Shown piece after piece: positions 31,396 to 38,277 of a stretch of DNA of 64,000 nucleotides (within the stretch, counting starts at the first letter, position 1; every line of letters starts with the position of its first letter). The DNA is from Spizellomyces punctatus DAOM BR117 (taxonomy: Eukaryota; Chytridiomycota; Chytridiomycetes; Spizellomycetales; Spizellomycetaceae). Location: the NCBI RefSeq assembly GCF_000182565.1, contig NW_015971553.1:124001-188000 (forward strand), written 5' to 3'. The position numbers and the translations under genes were made by a program. The notes beneath the pieces were generated by a model. That model made no database searches and was not told the DNA's origin. It worked only from the letters and a program-made list of their open reading frames with translations.

Positions 31396-34300
31396 TCATG
31401 TCAATGTGTCAATCTCAGAGCGAATTTCCTGCATCACATCAATACAATCCAGCTCAAAGAATGTTCCTCTGCGCTTTAGCTCCTCCACCAACCCCGTCAG
31501 GAGCTCAAATCCTTCCGCAGTTGACTTGTCCCCAAGCGCGCTCAAACACCCCAAGAGCGGCTCACTAAGAAAGATGACACATTTGCTTCGTGCTCTGCTG
31601 AGGGCCACATTGAGGAGGTTGCGGGAGAAGAGAAATGTGGTTTCCGATGATGGATGTGAAGACGCGTAGAGGATTAGAGTGACATCTGATTCCATCCCTT
31701 GCGATTTGTGTATTGTAAATATTTGAGGTGTGGGCGTTTCTGGAAGGAGTTGTTGCAACGGCAGTCGCTTTTTGTGGTGTGTTATTAGGTGAAGGATGGA
31801 CATTGGTCGGGAATGAGGAAGTCGACGAAGAAGGTTGGTTACATTCGCTGCTAATGCAGCTTCAGCCGATTCAATTAACGAACTCTTCCGAGTCCTGTCT
31901 CTGCAGATTGTAAAGTACGTGAGCAGTATACTACTAAATTGGCCAAGGAGATCTTCTCTCACCTCAAGATCACCATAACCATTGGTTTCCGTCTATCCAC
32001 GATGGTCGCGAAGACTGGTACTAGACTTTTGGCAGTTCGGATGTGTTCTTGGAATTCGGGCCGGGAGATGGGATTTCGTCCAATTATTTGCCCGATATTC
32101 TGCCGGGCAATTTCAGATGTGGCTGGTGCATAACTGGAGTACCCGACGAATCTACGAAGAATGCTCGCAGAGACCTGAATTGAAGAATAGCGTAAACATG
32201 GTACAGATAGTGAGAGTAGGTGGTTGTTTGTTACCTTATTCAATCTCCAGGTATCAACCAAACTAACCGGTACAACCCCTTCCCCGCCACGTCTAACGAT
32301 CCAGTTGAACAGGCTTTCACCCAACCAACCTTCGTCTCGTTTCGCCCCGAGTCGTCCTTTTGCCAGCGTACCAATCTGCAAATGATCCCCCACCATTAAA
32401 ACGGACCCGTTACGAGGGCACCACGGCAAAAGCTGCAATGCTACGCTCGTCTCAAGAATGGGTAAAAGAGATGCCTCTTCAATGCAAAGCATTACATCCG
32501 CTTCTGACATGTATGGGAGGACATGTGCAACCTTTTGCAATGCCCAGACGGTGCCTGCAATGACGACGTGGCGTTTGGCTTTCAGCATATTTTGCAAGGG
32601 TGTGTGTGAACATTTTCGGCTGCACTGACAGCGTTTTGAAGTTGTTGTGTAGTATATTATTTTGCCTTCAAAAAGACGAGGCGTGGATTCGGAAGTTGTC
32701 AGCCGAATGATGCGAGCTCCAATATCGGGACTGTTTGTGTGCTGAAGCATTTTTTGGATGACAGTGTCAATTGCGCTATGAGTTTGAGCGGCAAGTAGAA
32801 TAATCTGGGATCTGGTCGGGCGATGGACGATAGCTTGATGTATTCTTGAGAGGATGAGAGCACCAAGGAAGAAGCTTTTACCTACGAGATAGAAATCAGG
32901 CACAATTTGTGTGGGTGGAAAGTCTAGCTCAGATCTTACCTGTTCCAGGAGGTCCAATGAGAAGCTGCACCGGACGACTCTGGATTGCTTTTATGATAAC
33001 TTTGTGCTGTCGAGTCAAAGTAATTTTCTTCCCGGCATCCACAGCCAAACAGCCATCCTCATCTATGGGCCACCAACCATTCATTGGAATACCATTCGGT
33101 TTTGACGAGGGCAAAACGTCACCATTCACAAGTCGCATGACAACTGGGAGAGTTTGCTCATCATCGCTTCGTCCAATGTTTTGTGTTACAACATCGGCAT
33201 CCAAAGCCTGAAGATGATTGAGGGCTGGCTTGAGAGTTTGATTGGTATAGCGTCGGAAAAGCAGATACTGAGTGGAGACTGAAAGATTTGTTTGCGCATC
33301 AAAATTGAGAATGACATGTTCACTTGTTACATTGTCTTCGAAGTGAATGGTTGCAACGCAAAGATATGATGCATGGCCACGATCTGCTGCCCGCTTTGCC
33401 TGATACCGGTTGAATGCATCACACCTAAACATTGAGGAATATGAGAGATCCCGATGTAGAAGCAGTTCGGTTCGAAGTTGCTGATCATCCTCGGGTATCA
33501 CAAAATACTGGGTAAAGGCTGCTGGCTCGGTGCTGATTTGGTCGTCTATCGCTTCGGACATTATCTGGCATTGCCACGATTTGCCATTGTCTAGTGCTTT
33601 AATGGGCAAGACTACCATGGGACTGACAGCAAGCAGCCGCTCTTGTGAAAGCTCCTGCATATCTCGAGTAGCGTCCATGAGCCGCGAATACGCTAGCTGA
33701 GATAGCAAAGGTGTGCGAATCTGTAGTGGGGGTACGAAAGTGAAGGGCTTTTCTTGAATGGGTAGGAGGAGAGGCGTTGTAACCTTGTACATGTTCTGAA
33801 TGACGGCGAAGGTGCTGTTGATATAAGTGAATAGTTCGCTGTCCACTCTTCGTTCCATCTCCTCGATGTTACCATTTTGGCTTATTCGGAGATTATGGAT
33901 GTCAACGGCCAGCGTTCCTCGCGGGTCCTCGCGGACAAAGGCGGAGACATCAACAATGTCAGCCCCAGTCATAATATGATGCAACTGCGATATCGTAGAA
34001 ACGGGAAAAGGCAGCGCAAACATTGTGCGAGCCTCTTCCACAGCACACAGAGCACCTGTATGTACTCTTGTTGGATCGGCATGGCCTTCCTTCATGGCGG
34101 CCCCTATAGCTTCATCCACCACAATTGTTCTCAGCATGGTCTCCGCTGCTATTTTTACTTGACTATTAGTACCACCTTTGGCAAGTACGTCCACTAACAT
34201 CACGCCGAAGTTTCCCAGTTCCTCGGCTTCGCCTACCCAAACAGTGAGACTTTTTCCAGCGGTTTCTGCTGCTGACATGATACTGTGCAGTACGTTTATA

Positions 34301-37300
34301 TAGGCTTCAACCGTTGTGGGCGTTCCCACAGGGTAGACTTTCCAAGAACTTAGCGACGTCCCCGCAAAAATTCCATATCCGAGGAGGAGAGGGGTGTGGT
34401 CAATGGGGTCTTGGGAAATGCTGATAATCAGGGTTTGGTCTGAGCGGCAAGGAATCCGGAGGGAAGGTCGATTGAGATGAATGAGACGACTGGATTTAAC
34501 CGACAAAGCCTGTGGAACGTAAGGAACAAGTGTATTCCAAATTGAAGACAAAGAATCCTCACCCGTAATGCAGGTTTGTCAATTACTCGGCTGGCTTTTT
34601 CGTTTGGACTTCCCAAATCTTCAATATCTCGAATTCCTAATTCCCCACACAGGTCTTTTACCCGTCTATTCACCCCAGGGACAATCATCAAATCCATCTT
34701 CTCTTTTGCTTCGTTATAGCATTCATTCAAGTACTTGCAATCAGCACAATCCGGTGTGAGGTGGAAATCGGCTTCACCTTCAGGTGAAAGAATACTGGGA
34801 AGCTCATTGGTAAAAAAAGAGCGGATGCCCAAAGTGATATTTGGAATAGAAAAGGGAATCCGTTCACCGGGTTCCAATGGATAGTTGACTCCACTAGGTT
34901 GTCGGTCAGAACCTGGGAGCCATATTTGCCCAACTTGATCGATTACTATCTGGTGATTCTTTGCAAGCTGCAACATCGATTGTAGTATCATGCTATAAAG
35001 CGAGACTTGTATTTTCTGCGAAGGAAAAGTGCGAGGTGAATCCGTTGTCGATAATCCAACAAAATTGCTTCCTACCTGGTATGCTTTGATCCCAGTACTG
35101 AACTTTGCATCGATTATCTGAAGCACAGTAGTACCATTTTCAGCCCTTGTCAAGTGGAGAAAGTCTGGCTTAATGGTCTTGATACGTGGCTGCAAGCGGG
35201 CTCCCGATCTTGCCAAGCCAATCATGGCATTCACCTCGACCGGCACTTGAATGTTCGGCTCGTAAATATAGTGGCCGCTAGGGACACGTTCTATCAGAGC
35301 AATAAGTTGCTCTGCTGAGCCGACCTTTTCGCGAGATGAGCACATATAGCCGCTCTTCTCGATCCACTCCGTTATTCGCCGCTCCCAGTCATCTCCGCTG
35401 CGCTTTAAGAGTGAAGAAATCGGAGTATCGTTTCCATTCTGGAATGCGACCAATGGCGTTGCAAGGCGATGAAGGAGTCGAGGACAGCGCGTAATAAAGT
35501 AGCTCGCAATCTTTGTTGCACTCAAAGAGTGAGTTTCTGGGAGAAGCGGCCCGAATGTACCGGTGACATCATGCAAACTTAGGCTCGTCAAAGGTAGGCT
35601 GGAGGGTGTTGGCTGACCAGGTAAATTTGACGGAGTGGGCGAATACGACAATGAGCACCCTGTCATATTTTCTTGCGACAGCGCACCAATAGTGGTTCGT
35701 TCGGAATCTTGGGTAGGACAGCTCATGGGAGTGGCGATATGAAGCTTTTGCGAGACGGCGGCACCATCCTCTTCTTCATGATCACTCAATTCCAAATCCT
35801 CCGTAACCTCAGCAAAGATACACCTTGGTTGGCTCCAAGACACGCTCCTCGATTCCATAAACTCCTCCATCAATGTACGCCATGTCATTGTGGTCGGTGC
35901 ACCAAAGAACACGATATGGAGTGTGTACTTGGCTCTAGTCAGCGCTACATACACCCTTCTTCTCTCCTCCTCGCCTGACACCCCAATTTTACCGTTCTTA
36001 AGCTTTAAGAGAACAAACACATGGCCACGCTCTAAACCCTTGGCACCATGGATGGTTGAAATGAGGGTTTCTGCGAGAACATTGGTTGTCTCCGCTGTGC
36101 AAAAATCTGTGAAACGAGAGCACTCATCGTTACGGTAAGCGAGGATGGCGATGTCCGATGATGGAACGTTTTCCATTGCTACTAGTTTAGAAGCGGTTTT
36201 GTATGTGTGCCGGCACGCTTCGTCGAGCTAAAATTCATAATTATAAACAAATGGTTGATAAGTGATCTTTAACTTGAACCACCCATTGTACCGCTTACTG
36301 TAGTTTCGTAACAGACTCCAATGTCGCTACAGTTCATCTCTCTGCTGCCAGCAGGGACGCAAGATCTGAAGGCCCCTTTGTTTTCCTTTTGCCGTCGGGA
36401 CGCCAACGCAATTACCGAAGAATTGAAATCAATGATGCTCTGAATTGTACGATAGTTCGACAAGAGGGTGACTTCATTGAGATGATGACGGTCAAATCGT
36501 TTCTTGAATCTCTCCATAACCTCTGGAGCTGCACCACGAAAATGATAAATCGTCTGATCATCGTCTCCGACGACTGTGATTCGGTAAGGCCTGGGCGATT
36601 TTTCGATACCTGGGGAGCGGCTTCCGGATATCATATGTTTAATAAACATCTGGCGTCCAATCATACCGATGTTAGTTTCCAGACCATTTGTCGAGTACCA
36701 AACAAATTACCTCTTGCCATCTATCAACATCCTGAAATTCATCCACGAGAAGGTAATACTGGTCTCGGAAGTGTTCCGCCAGCTGCGGAGTCGAGCTAAG
36801 ATGCTTCACCACCCGTATCAATCTCGCTCGATGTGTACATATTCCCTCCCTCCATAGTTCATGTTCAATCTCCGTGATTCTCTCGGCATACGGCCGCAAC
36901 GCATCACATAGATGAGCAGTGCGATAAAGCGAGCTCAGTGCGTTCTCCAAAGACGTCCTGGACGCCTCGATATCGGGATTTGATTCATAGAGTCGGTCCA
37001 ATAGCTTTTTAATATATTCCTCGTCTGGAATGACAGTGTTTGGAGGATCTTCGATGAACTGGCGGCAATAAAATGAGGCGAGAGAATCGATGGTGCGAAC
37101 AAACGGCAAATTAATAGGTCTGTGATACCCCGCCAGTGAACTTATACGAGTCTTCAAGGTTTCCGCTGCATTTTTTGTAAAGGTGATGACAATCAGTCTG
37201 TGGGGAGAGATCTGTTGGGACAAGAGGAACAGGATCCTGCCAACTAAAGTAGCGGTTTTCCCTGTGCCTGGACTGCCAAGTTATGAGAAACATCTTCAAT

Positions 37301-38277
37301 TCAAAGATGTCCCTGAATGCGACGTACCCAGCGTTAACCAGTAGTGGGCGTTCCTTATCCGCCAGTACGGCACTCAACTGCTCAGGATTGAAATCATGGG
37401 CATCAACTGCATTCCTGAAGCTTTCAGCATGAAACTCCCGTAGTTGAGGATGGTTCTCAAACAGTGCCAATAGAAGGCAGTAAAATGGCGTGGTGGAGCA
37501 CAGCTCACATACGCGTTGGCTTAACTTTGTCGCTGCCTCATCCAGCATCTGTTTCGTTTCCTCTCGTCCGTAATCATGCAACACATTCTCAACCACTTTC
37601 CGACAATCAGAGAATCCTGTCACATTGGATAACTGTCCTCTAGCCAACGGGTCTTGCAAGGGCGGACGTGAGTTTTCTTCGGCACTTCTAAGCCAATGCT
37701 GTAGCCCTTGTAAAAGGTGTAGCACAGGAGGCCGATTACCATCAGACGGACCCTGAAATGGTACAGTACTTGTATTTTGGATTGTCCGAGAATCCCGCGC
37801 CCACCTGTCCATTGGTTGCTTGCCCTTGGTCCTTCCAATTCCTCCATTGAAATGGCTTACTTGTGGTGAAGGCACCTTGAATGGTAATGTTATTTTATCC
37901 GCAGGTTTCGGACGCTCATGCTCGTCAGCAGATGTGGATGAAGTGGTCCCAATCGTAGGTCCAGACACCACTGGTCCTTCCAGGTTCCCCTTTCCGCTCT
38001 CATCAGGTCCTAATCCATCAAGGAATTTGTTCGTCCGCTGTAGCTTGTCTGGAGACAGTCGTAAGATCCGCTCAACCAGATTGCTGGCTGCCCGGATGTG
38101 TTCTGCAGGGAGGCTCTGGAAGACATCCGCCAGATTTGTTGCAGCGAGGACTTGGGAAGAGGAATCGGCATCATCAGAGCCTTTGACTGTGTATGGCTGT
38201 TGCGGATGATTGATATCGCCTGTTCTGTGGCGTTTTCGTAAATCTTGTTCGTCAAGTAAACCCCGTTGCCGTCTCAT
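31396..38277 (-). CDS. Giant fusion: UvrD helicase, Cas4/RecB-type Fe-S nuclease, Dna2/UPF1-like helicase
   Basis: Eight exons, complement(31396-31900, 31963-32174, 32235-32881, 32940-34509, 34563-36227, 36299-36649, 36711-37272, 37328-38277), sum to 6462 nt, 2153 aa. SF1A helicase: Walker A NAGPGTGKT (315-323, completed by splicing), LLVDEFQDVD (492-500), VVGDDDQTIYHFRGA (~530), TIHGAKGLE (~680), VYVALTRAK (713-721). Nuclease: C869 in ITRCPR, KPD (D976), IDAK (994, 996), QVSLYS (1028), C1115-x2-C1118-x5-C1124, i.e. a PD-(D/E)XK fold with the four-cysteine Fe-S pattern of Cas4/AddB/Dna2. HhH-like segment ~1135-1163. SF1B helicase: GPPGTGKS (1695-1702, split by an intron), CIEEAS (~1834), VGDHLQ (~1864), TIHKSQGME (~2048), LLNVALSRAR (~2081-2090). 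The second half matches the layout of bacterial TM0106-type nuclease-helicases. Likely nuclear DNA repair or end processing; inference. Confidence 0.87.

Follow-up and report, generated by a model that had tools for sequence, protein, structure and literature searches.

RecBCD, AddAB and AdnAB are multi-subunit bacterial complexes that combine superfamily 1 (SF1) helicase motors with a RecB-family nuclease. In Bad of Geobacillus stearothermophilus, a DNA2-like protein, an iron-staple (four-cysteine iron-sulfur) nuclease is followed by a central domain and then an SF1B helicase, and the protein is described as a 5′–3′ translocase and helicase as well as an endonuclease on single-stranded DNA (PMC7430649, in the excerpts consulted here). 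According to the same excerpts, the central domain is absent from eukaryotic DNA2 and its function was called completely unknown by Wilkinson and co-workers, and the bad gene adjoins a DNA methyltransferase gene in Geobacilli (PMC7430649). The gene described here lies at 31396..38277 on the minus strand of a 64,000-nucleotide (nt) stretch of Spizellomyces punctatus DAOM BR117 (contig NW_015971553.1, positions 124,001 to 188,000; hereafter the window, in whose numbering the positions of the gene are given). Judged from its sequence, the gene and the fusion that it carries are real, intact and conserved, and the product is a predicted helicase–nuclease–helicase. In a preliminary description of this DNA, one polypeptide had been proposed to combine a UvrD-type SF1A helicase with a PD-(D/E)XK nuclease of the iron-sulfur type and with an SF1B helicase, and this arrangement is supported by Pfam, by motifs and by five conserved fusion proteins.

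The gene had initially been modelled as eight exons encoding 2,153 amino acids (aa). This model was reproduced exactly (minus strand, consistent phases, GT–AG introns and one terminal stop), yet it had overlooked a 60-nt stop-free GT–AG intron (35016..35075, minus strand) positioned inside the nuclease, between its DAK and QxxxY motifs. The residues of this stretch are missing from the annotated S. punctatus protein (P0001) and, by alignment, from the other four fusion proteins, of which P0002 also loses QxxxY. Because this intron is removed, the corrected model has nine exons (38277-37328, 37272-36711, 36649-36299, 36227-35076, 35015-34563, 34509-32940, 32881-32235, 32174-31963 and 31900-31396) and 2,133 aa, on the basis of the rebuilt splicing and the annotated counterpart P0001. 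The spliced frame is free of internal stops: only the terminal stop occurs in the rebuilt product, with no frame break. The junction at 34510-34562 that had been singled out as critical, however, separates the nuclease part from the central domain and is thus within the second half, not where the two halves meet. The fusion point is in exon 4 (35076..36227, minus strand), where a single unbroken frame runs from UvrD motifs V and VI through the linker to the PD and DAK motifs of the nuclease; since this one exon holds motifs of both domains, the fusion requires no splice and can be read directly from the DNA.

Several smaller splicing choices were also evaluated. The last intron (31962-31901) is one of several in-frame options, and the annotated protein agrees with this choice; a frameshift near 31990 was rejected, as removal of this 62-nt intron puts the sequence back in frame, in agreement with the annotated protein. 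Annotated P0001 takes out a 63-nt in-frame stretch (33330-33268) that P0002 keeps and P0005 is without, while residues of P0003 and P0004 align across it. An intron at this place is doubted, since P0002, P0003 and P0004 retain aligned residues there, and its removal in the annotated S. punctatus protein possibly represents an alternative or wrong splice. A phase-1 intron (32882..32939, minus strand) falls within the P-loop glycine codon of the SF1B helicase, and at exactly this position additional residues occur in P0004 and P0005.

The full arrangement was found in five database proteins from three genera of Spizellomycetales, namely Spizellomyces (two), Fimicolochytrium (one) and Geranomyces (two), with identities ranging from 36 to 98%: a variant hypothetical protein of S. 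punctatus DAOM BR117 (98%), Spizellomyces sp. 'palustris' (91%), Fimicolochytrium jonesii (40%) and two proteins of Geranomyces variabilis (39 and 36%). As five full-length fusion proteins exist in three genera, chance is excluded. In the full-length search, where the 7,999 candidates sharing most words were scored (so that rarer relatives may be missed), the next match extends over 16% of the query, and coverage stays at or below 23% in every later row. A search with the C-terminal half returned at least 26 matches at E ≤ 0.001, and among the matches listed the only UvrD fusions, by Pfam, were the same five. In line with the earlier remark that no described eukaryotic protein of this order was known, none was pointed to in listings from the open-licence PubMed Central literature or, outside Spizellomycetales, found in protein searches. 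Conserved in the five-protein alignment are the UvrD motifs, the PD and DAK motifs and four cysteines of the nuclease and, where annotation covers them, most SF1B motifs. Two annotations have gaps, P0002 being without QxxxY and P0005 without the P-loop lysine and a following stretch, and from their sequences the dropped pieces look like exon errors.

By Pfam, the expected UvrD, AAA_11 and AAA_12 domains were all recovered above cut-off: UvrD-helicase (PF00580; 155 bits; residues 297–556 in the 2,153-aa numbering), UvrD_C (PF13361; 51 bits; 674–727), AAA_11 (54 bits; 1676–1767) and AAA_12 (57 bits; 1989–2096), the cut-off being 27 bits for the latter two. The UvrD-type helicase (aa ~297–727; 35910..37389, minus strand) harbours SF1A motifs I to VI (GPGTGKT, DEFQD, GDDDQTIYHFRG, NYRT, HGAKGLE and YVALTRAK), and the UvrD motifs are kept in all five aligned fusion proteins. 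It is preceded by an N-terminal extension of ~296 aa (37389..38277, minus strand), defined by the rebuilt model and the fusion alignment, near the start of which a basic patch, RKRHR, was noticed by eye; this is a possible candidate nuclear signal. In UvrD-type proteins a long insert between motifs IV and V normally houses sub-domain 2B, which restrains unwinding in Rep and UvrD. Here, by spacing only, 108 residues separate motifs IV and V, leaving no room for a long insert, so that the usual 2B sub-domain seems to be absent. Among 264 sequences surveyed, the motifs could be located in 98, and an equally short gap was found in nine of these, six of them fusion proteins (five from the database plus the one encoded in the window) and the other three bacterial TPR proteins.

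The relatives of the UvrD half are generic UvrD/PcrA-type proteins, mostly at 25–34% identity over the aligned part among the matches listed; of the 120 listed, most rows are unnamed and the names given are bacterial. Plant SRS2-like proteins match the full query at weaker scores. Fifty-five phage records match, none covering more than 80% of the query, and the ten among them that were listed all match in the UvrD half. An exon-by-exon search of the S. punctatus genome, which may miss genes, revealed one further UvrD-type locus, divergent and weak (C2:2126-2127 kb), and no clear Srs2-like gene. In the otherwise divergent linker between the UvrD helicase and the nuclease, a short motif, QDS..T (aa 794–799; ~35711–35694), is invariant in all five fusion proteins.

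The nuclease (aa ~853–1104; 34719..35534, minus strand) was delimited by invariant alignment columns and a motif table. The PDDEXK_1 match anticipated earlier did not materialize: the Pfam scan gave no nuclease match for the fungal sequence itself, while PDDEXK_1 scored above cut-off in two of the three relatives scanned. Its residues are C869, PD at 975–976, D994-A-K996, QxxxY and C1095-x2-C1098-x5-C1104. This corresponds to the iron-staple signature (PD, DxK, QxxxY and four cysteines as C...C-x2-C-x5-C), which both the window and the fusion rows show, save the QxxxY dropped by the P0002 annotation. Across the 26 rows compared, the first cysteine, PD and the three further cysteines are present in every row; the first residue of DxK is Asp in 24 and Glu in 2; the glutamine of QxxxY is kept in 19, replaced by Glu in 6 distant rows and missing from P0002 by annotation; and the C-x2-C-x5-C spacing is exact in 20 (all fusion rows included), the last gap being longer in the other 6, which are distant. 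By its motifs, the nuclease is thus predicted to be of the iron-staple PD-(D/E)XK type found in AddB, Cas4, Dna2 and Bad.

The region that follows (aa ~1105–1650; 33030..34718, minus strand) comprises a putative stretch previously labelled HhH-like and the central domain, which by profile alignment is homologous to that of a prokaryotic stand-alone family. The proposal that it is a degenerate RNase H-like domain received weak support from the bacterial family, whose central domain matched the RNase H domain of TM0106 with an hhalign E of 2.6e-4 and a probability of 42%, where E was 0.13 or more for pairs with no expected match and a nuclease–nuclease control reached 97.5%; the fungal profile alone gave E 0.73, which is not significant. 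RNase_H_2 (PF13482) was not detected in the fusion protein by Pfam. In place of the acidic RNase H motif DIEGDP there are sequences such as TLQQEP and SISQDP, and the acidic residues of that motif are not kept. A catalytically dead RNase H-like fold is plausible for this domain, and the weak TM0106 match offers a lead on the fold of the Bad-type central domain.

The second helicase (aa ~1650–2077; 31566..33030, minus strand) is SF1B of the Dna2/UPF1-like kind, as identified by AAA_11 and AAA_12 and by profile matches to DNA2 and UPF1 in the PDB, the best being DNA2. Its motifs are GPPGTGKS, CIEEAS, GDHLQI, TWRLN, TIHKSQG and NVALSRAR. PADLOC matches to the C-terminal half lay in this helicase region (best 67.6 bits to MkoA of the Mokosh system, with DpdJ and others also matched) and were set aside as generic helicase similarity.

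The C-terminal half has relatives that stand alone. Against a profile of prokaryotic and metagenomic stand-alone proteins (A1, built from eight proteins: four of P0121-P0124, L014-L016, L128, L129, L131 and L133, plus four others), the fusion profile aligned with an hhalign probability of 100% and an E of 1.2e-77 over 1,133 columns, a span that takes in nuclease, central domain and helicase alike. Stand-alone proteins with both ends visible measure 1,238 to 1,504 aa and come from Planctomycetota, Methanoculleus, Gammaproteobacteria, Chloroflexi and Bacteroidota, among others. Among 392 Planctomycetota genomes, with at most two candidates scored per genome, at least 17 matched at E ≤ 1e-60, with at least 6 full length in a single open reading frame (ORF) and 1 more split on two contigs. 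On two alphaproteobacterial plasmids (L138:5004-13597 and L139:5980-14822), the tblastn match to P0121 spans two genes, nuclease side and helicase side being separate, and the SF1B part in L138 forms a fusion with a DEAD-type superfamily 2 helicase. In one Methanoculleus sp. copy (L017:4737-8515) the nuclease-helicase runs in two overlapping frames, which is either a broken gene or a sequencing error.

Within fungi, S. punctatus also harbours a stand-alone paralogue (L098:1792-6542; contig C2, ~139.3–144.0 kb) with nine predicted exons and 1,407 aa, whose predicted splicing includes a 17-nt micro-exon inside the P-loop, and Gryganskiella P0125 (1,483 aa) is a further fungal stand-alone form. 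In a 26-row tree, four fusion rows, the paralogue and P0125 formed one group (support 99/98) beside the Planctomycetota/Methanoculleus group, and earlier trees gave the same fungal grouping at 95 and 96/97. Left out of the trees were L017 (two broken pieces), P0126 (partial) and the weaker C-half matches P0128 and P0131 to P0141; L026, on a very long branch, was kept in the first tree only, and P0005, a near copy of P0004, was omitted from the 26-row tree. The fungal grouping is provisional because the fungal branches are long and drew a tool warning of long branches meeting. In both the fusion gene and the paralogue, the same P-loop codon is interrupted by a phase-1 intron, which would support common descent within fungi, as weak evidence: P-loops resemble splice sites, and no other coinciding intron was noticed by eye.

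Taken together, the domains, their order, the single frame and the conservation of the fusion can be read from the sequence, and most catalytic residues are kept. The protein may then be a conserved Spizellomycetales enzyme in which a Bad/DNA2-type module is joined to a compact UvrD-type SF1A motor and which processes DNA, a reading whose chances we consider evenly balanced. This module, which consists of an iron-sulfur-type nuclease, a central domain and an SF1B helicase and has rare prokaryotic proteins as relatives, would have joined the C-terminus of the UvrD-type motor. With the enzyme at a flap or at the end of a DNA, the UvrD motor would move 3′–5′ on one strand and the Bad-type motor 5′–3′ on the other, both then running the same way along the duplex, and the nuclease would cut whichever strand passes through the SF1B motor. 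The protein's role would probably be to process flaps, stalled forks or broken ends, or to destroy foreign linear DNA; it would not be that of replicative Dna2, because the genome has a separate Dna2 gene. RecBCD-like bipolar movement by two motors is a plausible hypothesis. The more specific proposal, that this is a single-chain eukaryotic RecBCD analogue of 2,133 aa in which an iron-sulfur nuclease works with two SF1 motors, both active and opposite in polarity, its Bad-type C-terminal half acquired from prokaryotes, duplicated and fused once to UvrD in Spizellomycetales, is possible, though we consider it less likely than not.

Several observations weigh against the Bad/DNA2-plus-UvrD enzyme reading, and those on the Walker B and on the prokaryotic neighbourhoods weigh against two working motors as well. 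The Walker B of the second helicase (E1814–E1815; 32475..32480, minus strand) is Glu-Glu in all five fusion proteins, compared with Asp-Glu in all 22 other rows, so the second motor may be slow or dead. The kinship of the C-terminal half with Bad is argued from layout and spacing, not from alignment. A 28-row tree of the UvrD half was star-like and did not place its origin. Neighbourhoods of the prokaryotic relatives were searched with the fungal UvrD-half profile for ORFs of at least 100 aa within the available flanks (L016 and L132, being the same place, were counted once), and a UvrD gene was found beside none of the six close-clade loci. It was found near 2 of the 11 loci overall (L020 and L088, both of a distant clade). 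A separate scan of L014, L017, L019, L022 and L026, some of which are on short contigs, found no UvrD there. A bacterial operon of UvrD and nuclease-helicase as the ancestor of the fusion is therefore not supported. With the SF1B–DEAD fusion of L138 and the UvrD genes near L020 and L088, a second motor has more than once come to be associated with modules of this kind, which fits a two-motor mode of action without proving it.

The altered Walker B invites another explanation, in which the UvrD motor alone drives and the SF1B part, next to the iron-sulfur-type nuclease, clamps or scans the DNA. A comparable pairing exists in AddAB, where AddB combines a helicase fold that is inactive with a nuclease of the iron-sulfur kind. 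Besides the Walker B contrast between fusions and all other rows, motifs II and III of the second helicase deviate (SL where SQ or AQ is usual, and GT for PP, AP, GP or SP), while the UvrD motifs are conserved. Yet the second helicase retains the Walker A lysine (where annotation covers it), the arginines of motifs IV and VI and a TIHKSQG-type motif V, which is RecD-like; it is not plainly decayed, and a D-to-E substitution can leave some activity. We regard this AddAB-like division of labour as rather unlikely, though still a serious contender. That the protein is a defence enzyme against foreign DNA (viruses or mobile elements), with a restriction-like system of prokaryotes as its source, appears improbable. 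This reading would accord with the rare and patchy occurrence of the prokaryotic relatives (full length in at least 6 of the 392 Planctomycetota genomes) and with the gene content of L020 (712-14254), where a UvrD with a Cas4-like tail accompanies methyltransferase-like, restriction-type, nucleosidase/effector-like and nuclease-helicase genes (labels based on NCBIfam matches below curated cut-offs and on PADLOC matches); the ORFs of L088 (1-12085) are laid out similarly and include a UvrD match, L020 being the one of the two whose domains were scanned. Bad itself adjoins a methyltransferase gene, as excerpted (PMC7430649). However, these operons belong to the distant clade and not to the closest one, and a conserved chromosomal gene fits repair equally well. 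The fungal gene is located on contig C17 of a 24.0-Mb assembly of 29 contigs, among housekeeping genes (exons of glutamine synthetase, actin and pyruvate kinase in the same window), and no methyltransferase was noted in the window, where seven stretches, not every gene, were scanned by Pfam, four of them without a match. S. punctatus is a free-living soil fungus, so that work on the protein need not involve a pathogen.

The Geranomyces annotation 'Tripartite DNA replication factor' raises the question of an ordinary fungal Dna2, with which the protein shares the nuclease–SF1B order and which is the best PDB match of its SF1B half. Pfam Dna2 was found in the S. punctatus genome at C5:259 kb only, and the fusion has a central domain and a UvrD motor besides; with Dna2 a separate gene, a replicative Dna2 identity is refuted and this explanation is very improbable. 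Hardly credible is that two neighbouring genes were wrongly joined or that the locus is a decaying pseudogene: the evidence consists of gene models only, but UvrD and nuclease motifs share one exon, the order is kept in five fusion proteins and no frame break occurs.

Among described proteins, the best-characterised match to the layout of the C-terminal half is, on this comparison, Bad and not TM0106. Bad has the same three-part order, a similar length (1,245 aa against 1,288) and a near-equal distance between catalytic residues, its nuclease Asp150 and Walker Lys815 being 665 apart (PMC7430649, as excerpted) against 671–687 in four fusion rows (as annotated or modelled). Elsewhere this distance is 667–701 in the close prokaryotic group (11 rows), 737 and 792 in the fungal stand-alones, and 757–825 in eight of nine distant rows, the ninth having 670. 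Unlike the fungal protein, Bad is bacterial, and the excerpts describe no UvrD helicase for it (PMC7430649). Eukaryotic Dna2 has an iron-sulfur-type nuclease and an SF1B helicase in common with the fusion, but in S. punctatus it is a separate gene, is without UvrD and, according to the excerpts on eukaryotic DNA2, without the central domain (PMC7430649); the Dna2 nuclease domain (PF08696) gave no Pfam match in the fusion protein at E ≤ 0.1. The TM0106-type layout previously assigned to the second half holds for the order of nuclease, putative RNase H-like domain and SF1B helicase, and the fusion profile matched the TM0106 proteins of four plasmids at 99.1% (hhalign E 9e-19). Family membership was nevertheless rejected: without its first 106 residues, the query scored 27.3 bits against a TIGR03491 cut-off of 97.45. 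The fusion has neither a PF13482 match nor the RNase H acidic residues. The prokaryotic stand-alone proteins (P0121-P0124, L014-L016, L128, L129, L131 and L133; Planctomycetota, Methanoculleus and metagenomes) align over the whole C-terminal half, but at ~21% identity in those compared, with an Asp-Glu Walker B and no UvrD nearby in the six loci examined. The S. punctatus paralogue and Gryganskiella P0125 share the C-terminal layout of the fusion but are without the UvrD half and have an Asp-Glu Walker B. The Spizellomycetales proteins are thus fungal carriers of a Bad-type architecture. Compared with RecBCD, AddAB and AdnAB, the fusion would recapitulate in principle the polarities of RecB and RecD, but on one polypeptide and in a different domain order, and so represents a natural test of whether the two-motor logic of RecBCD can fit one chain.

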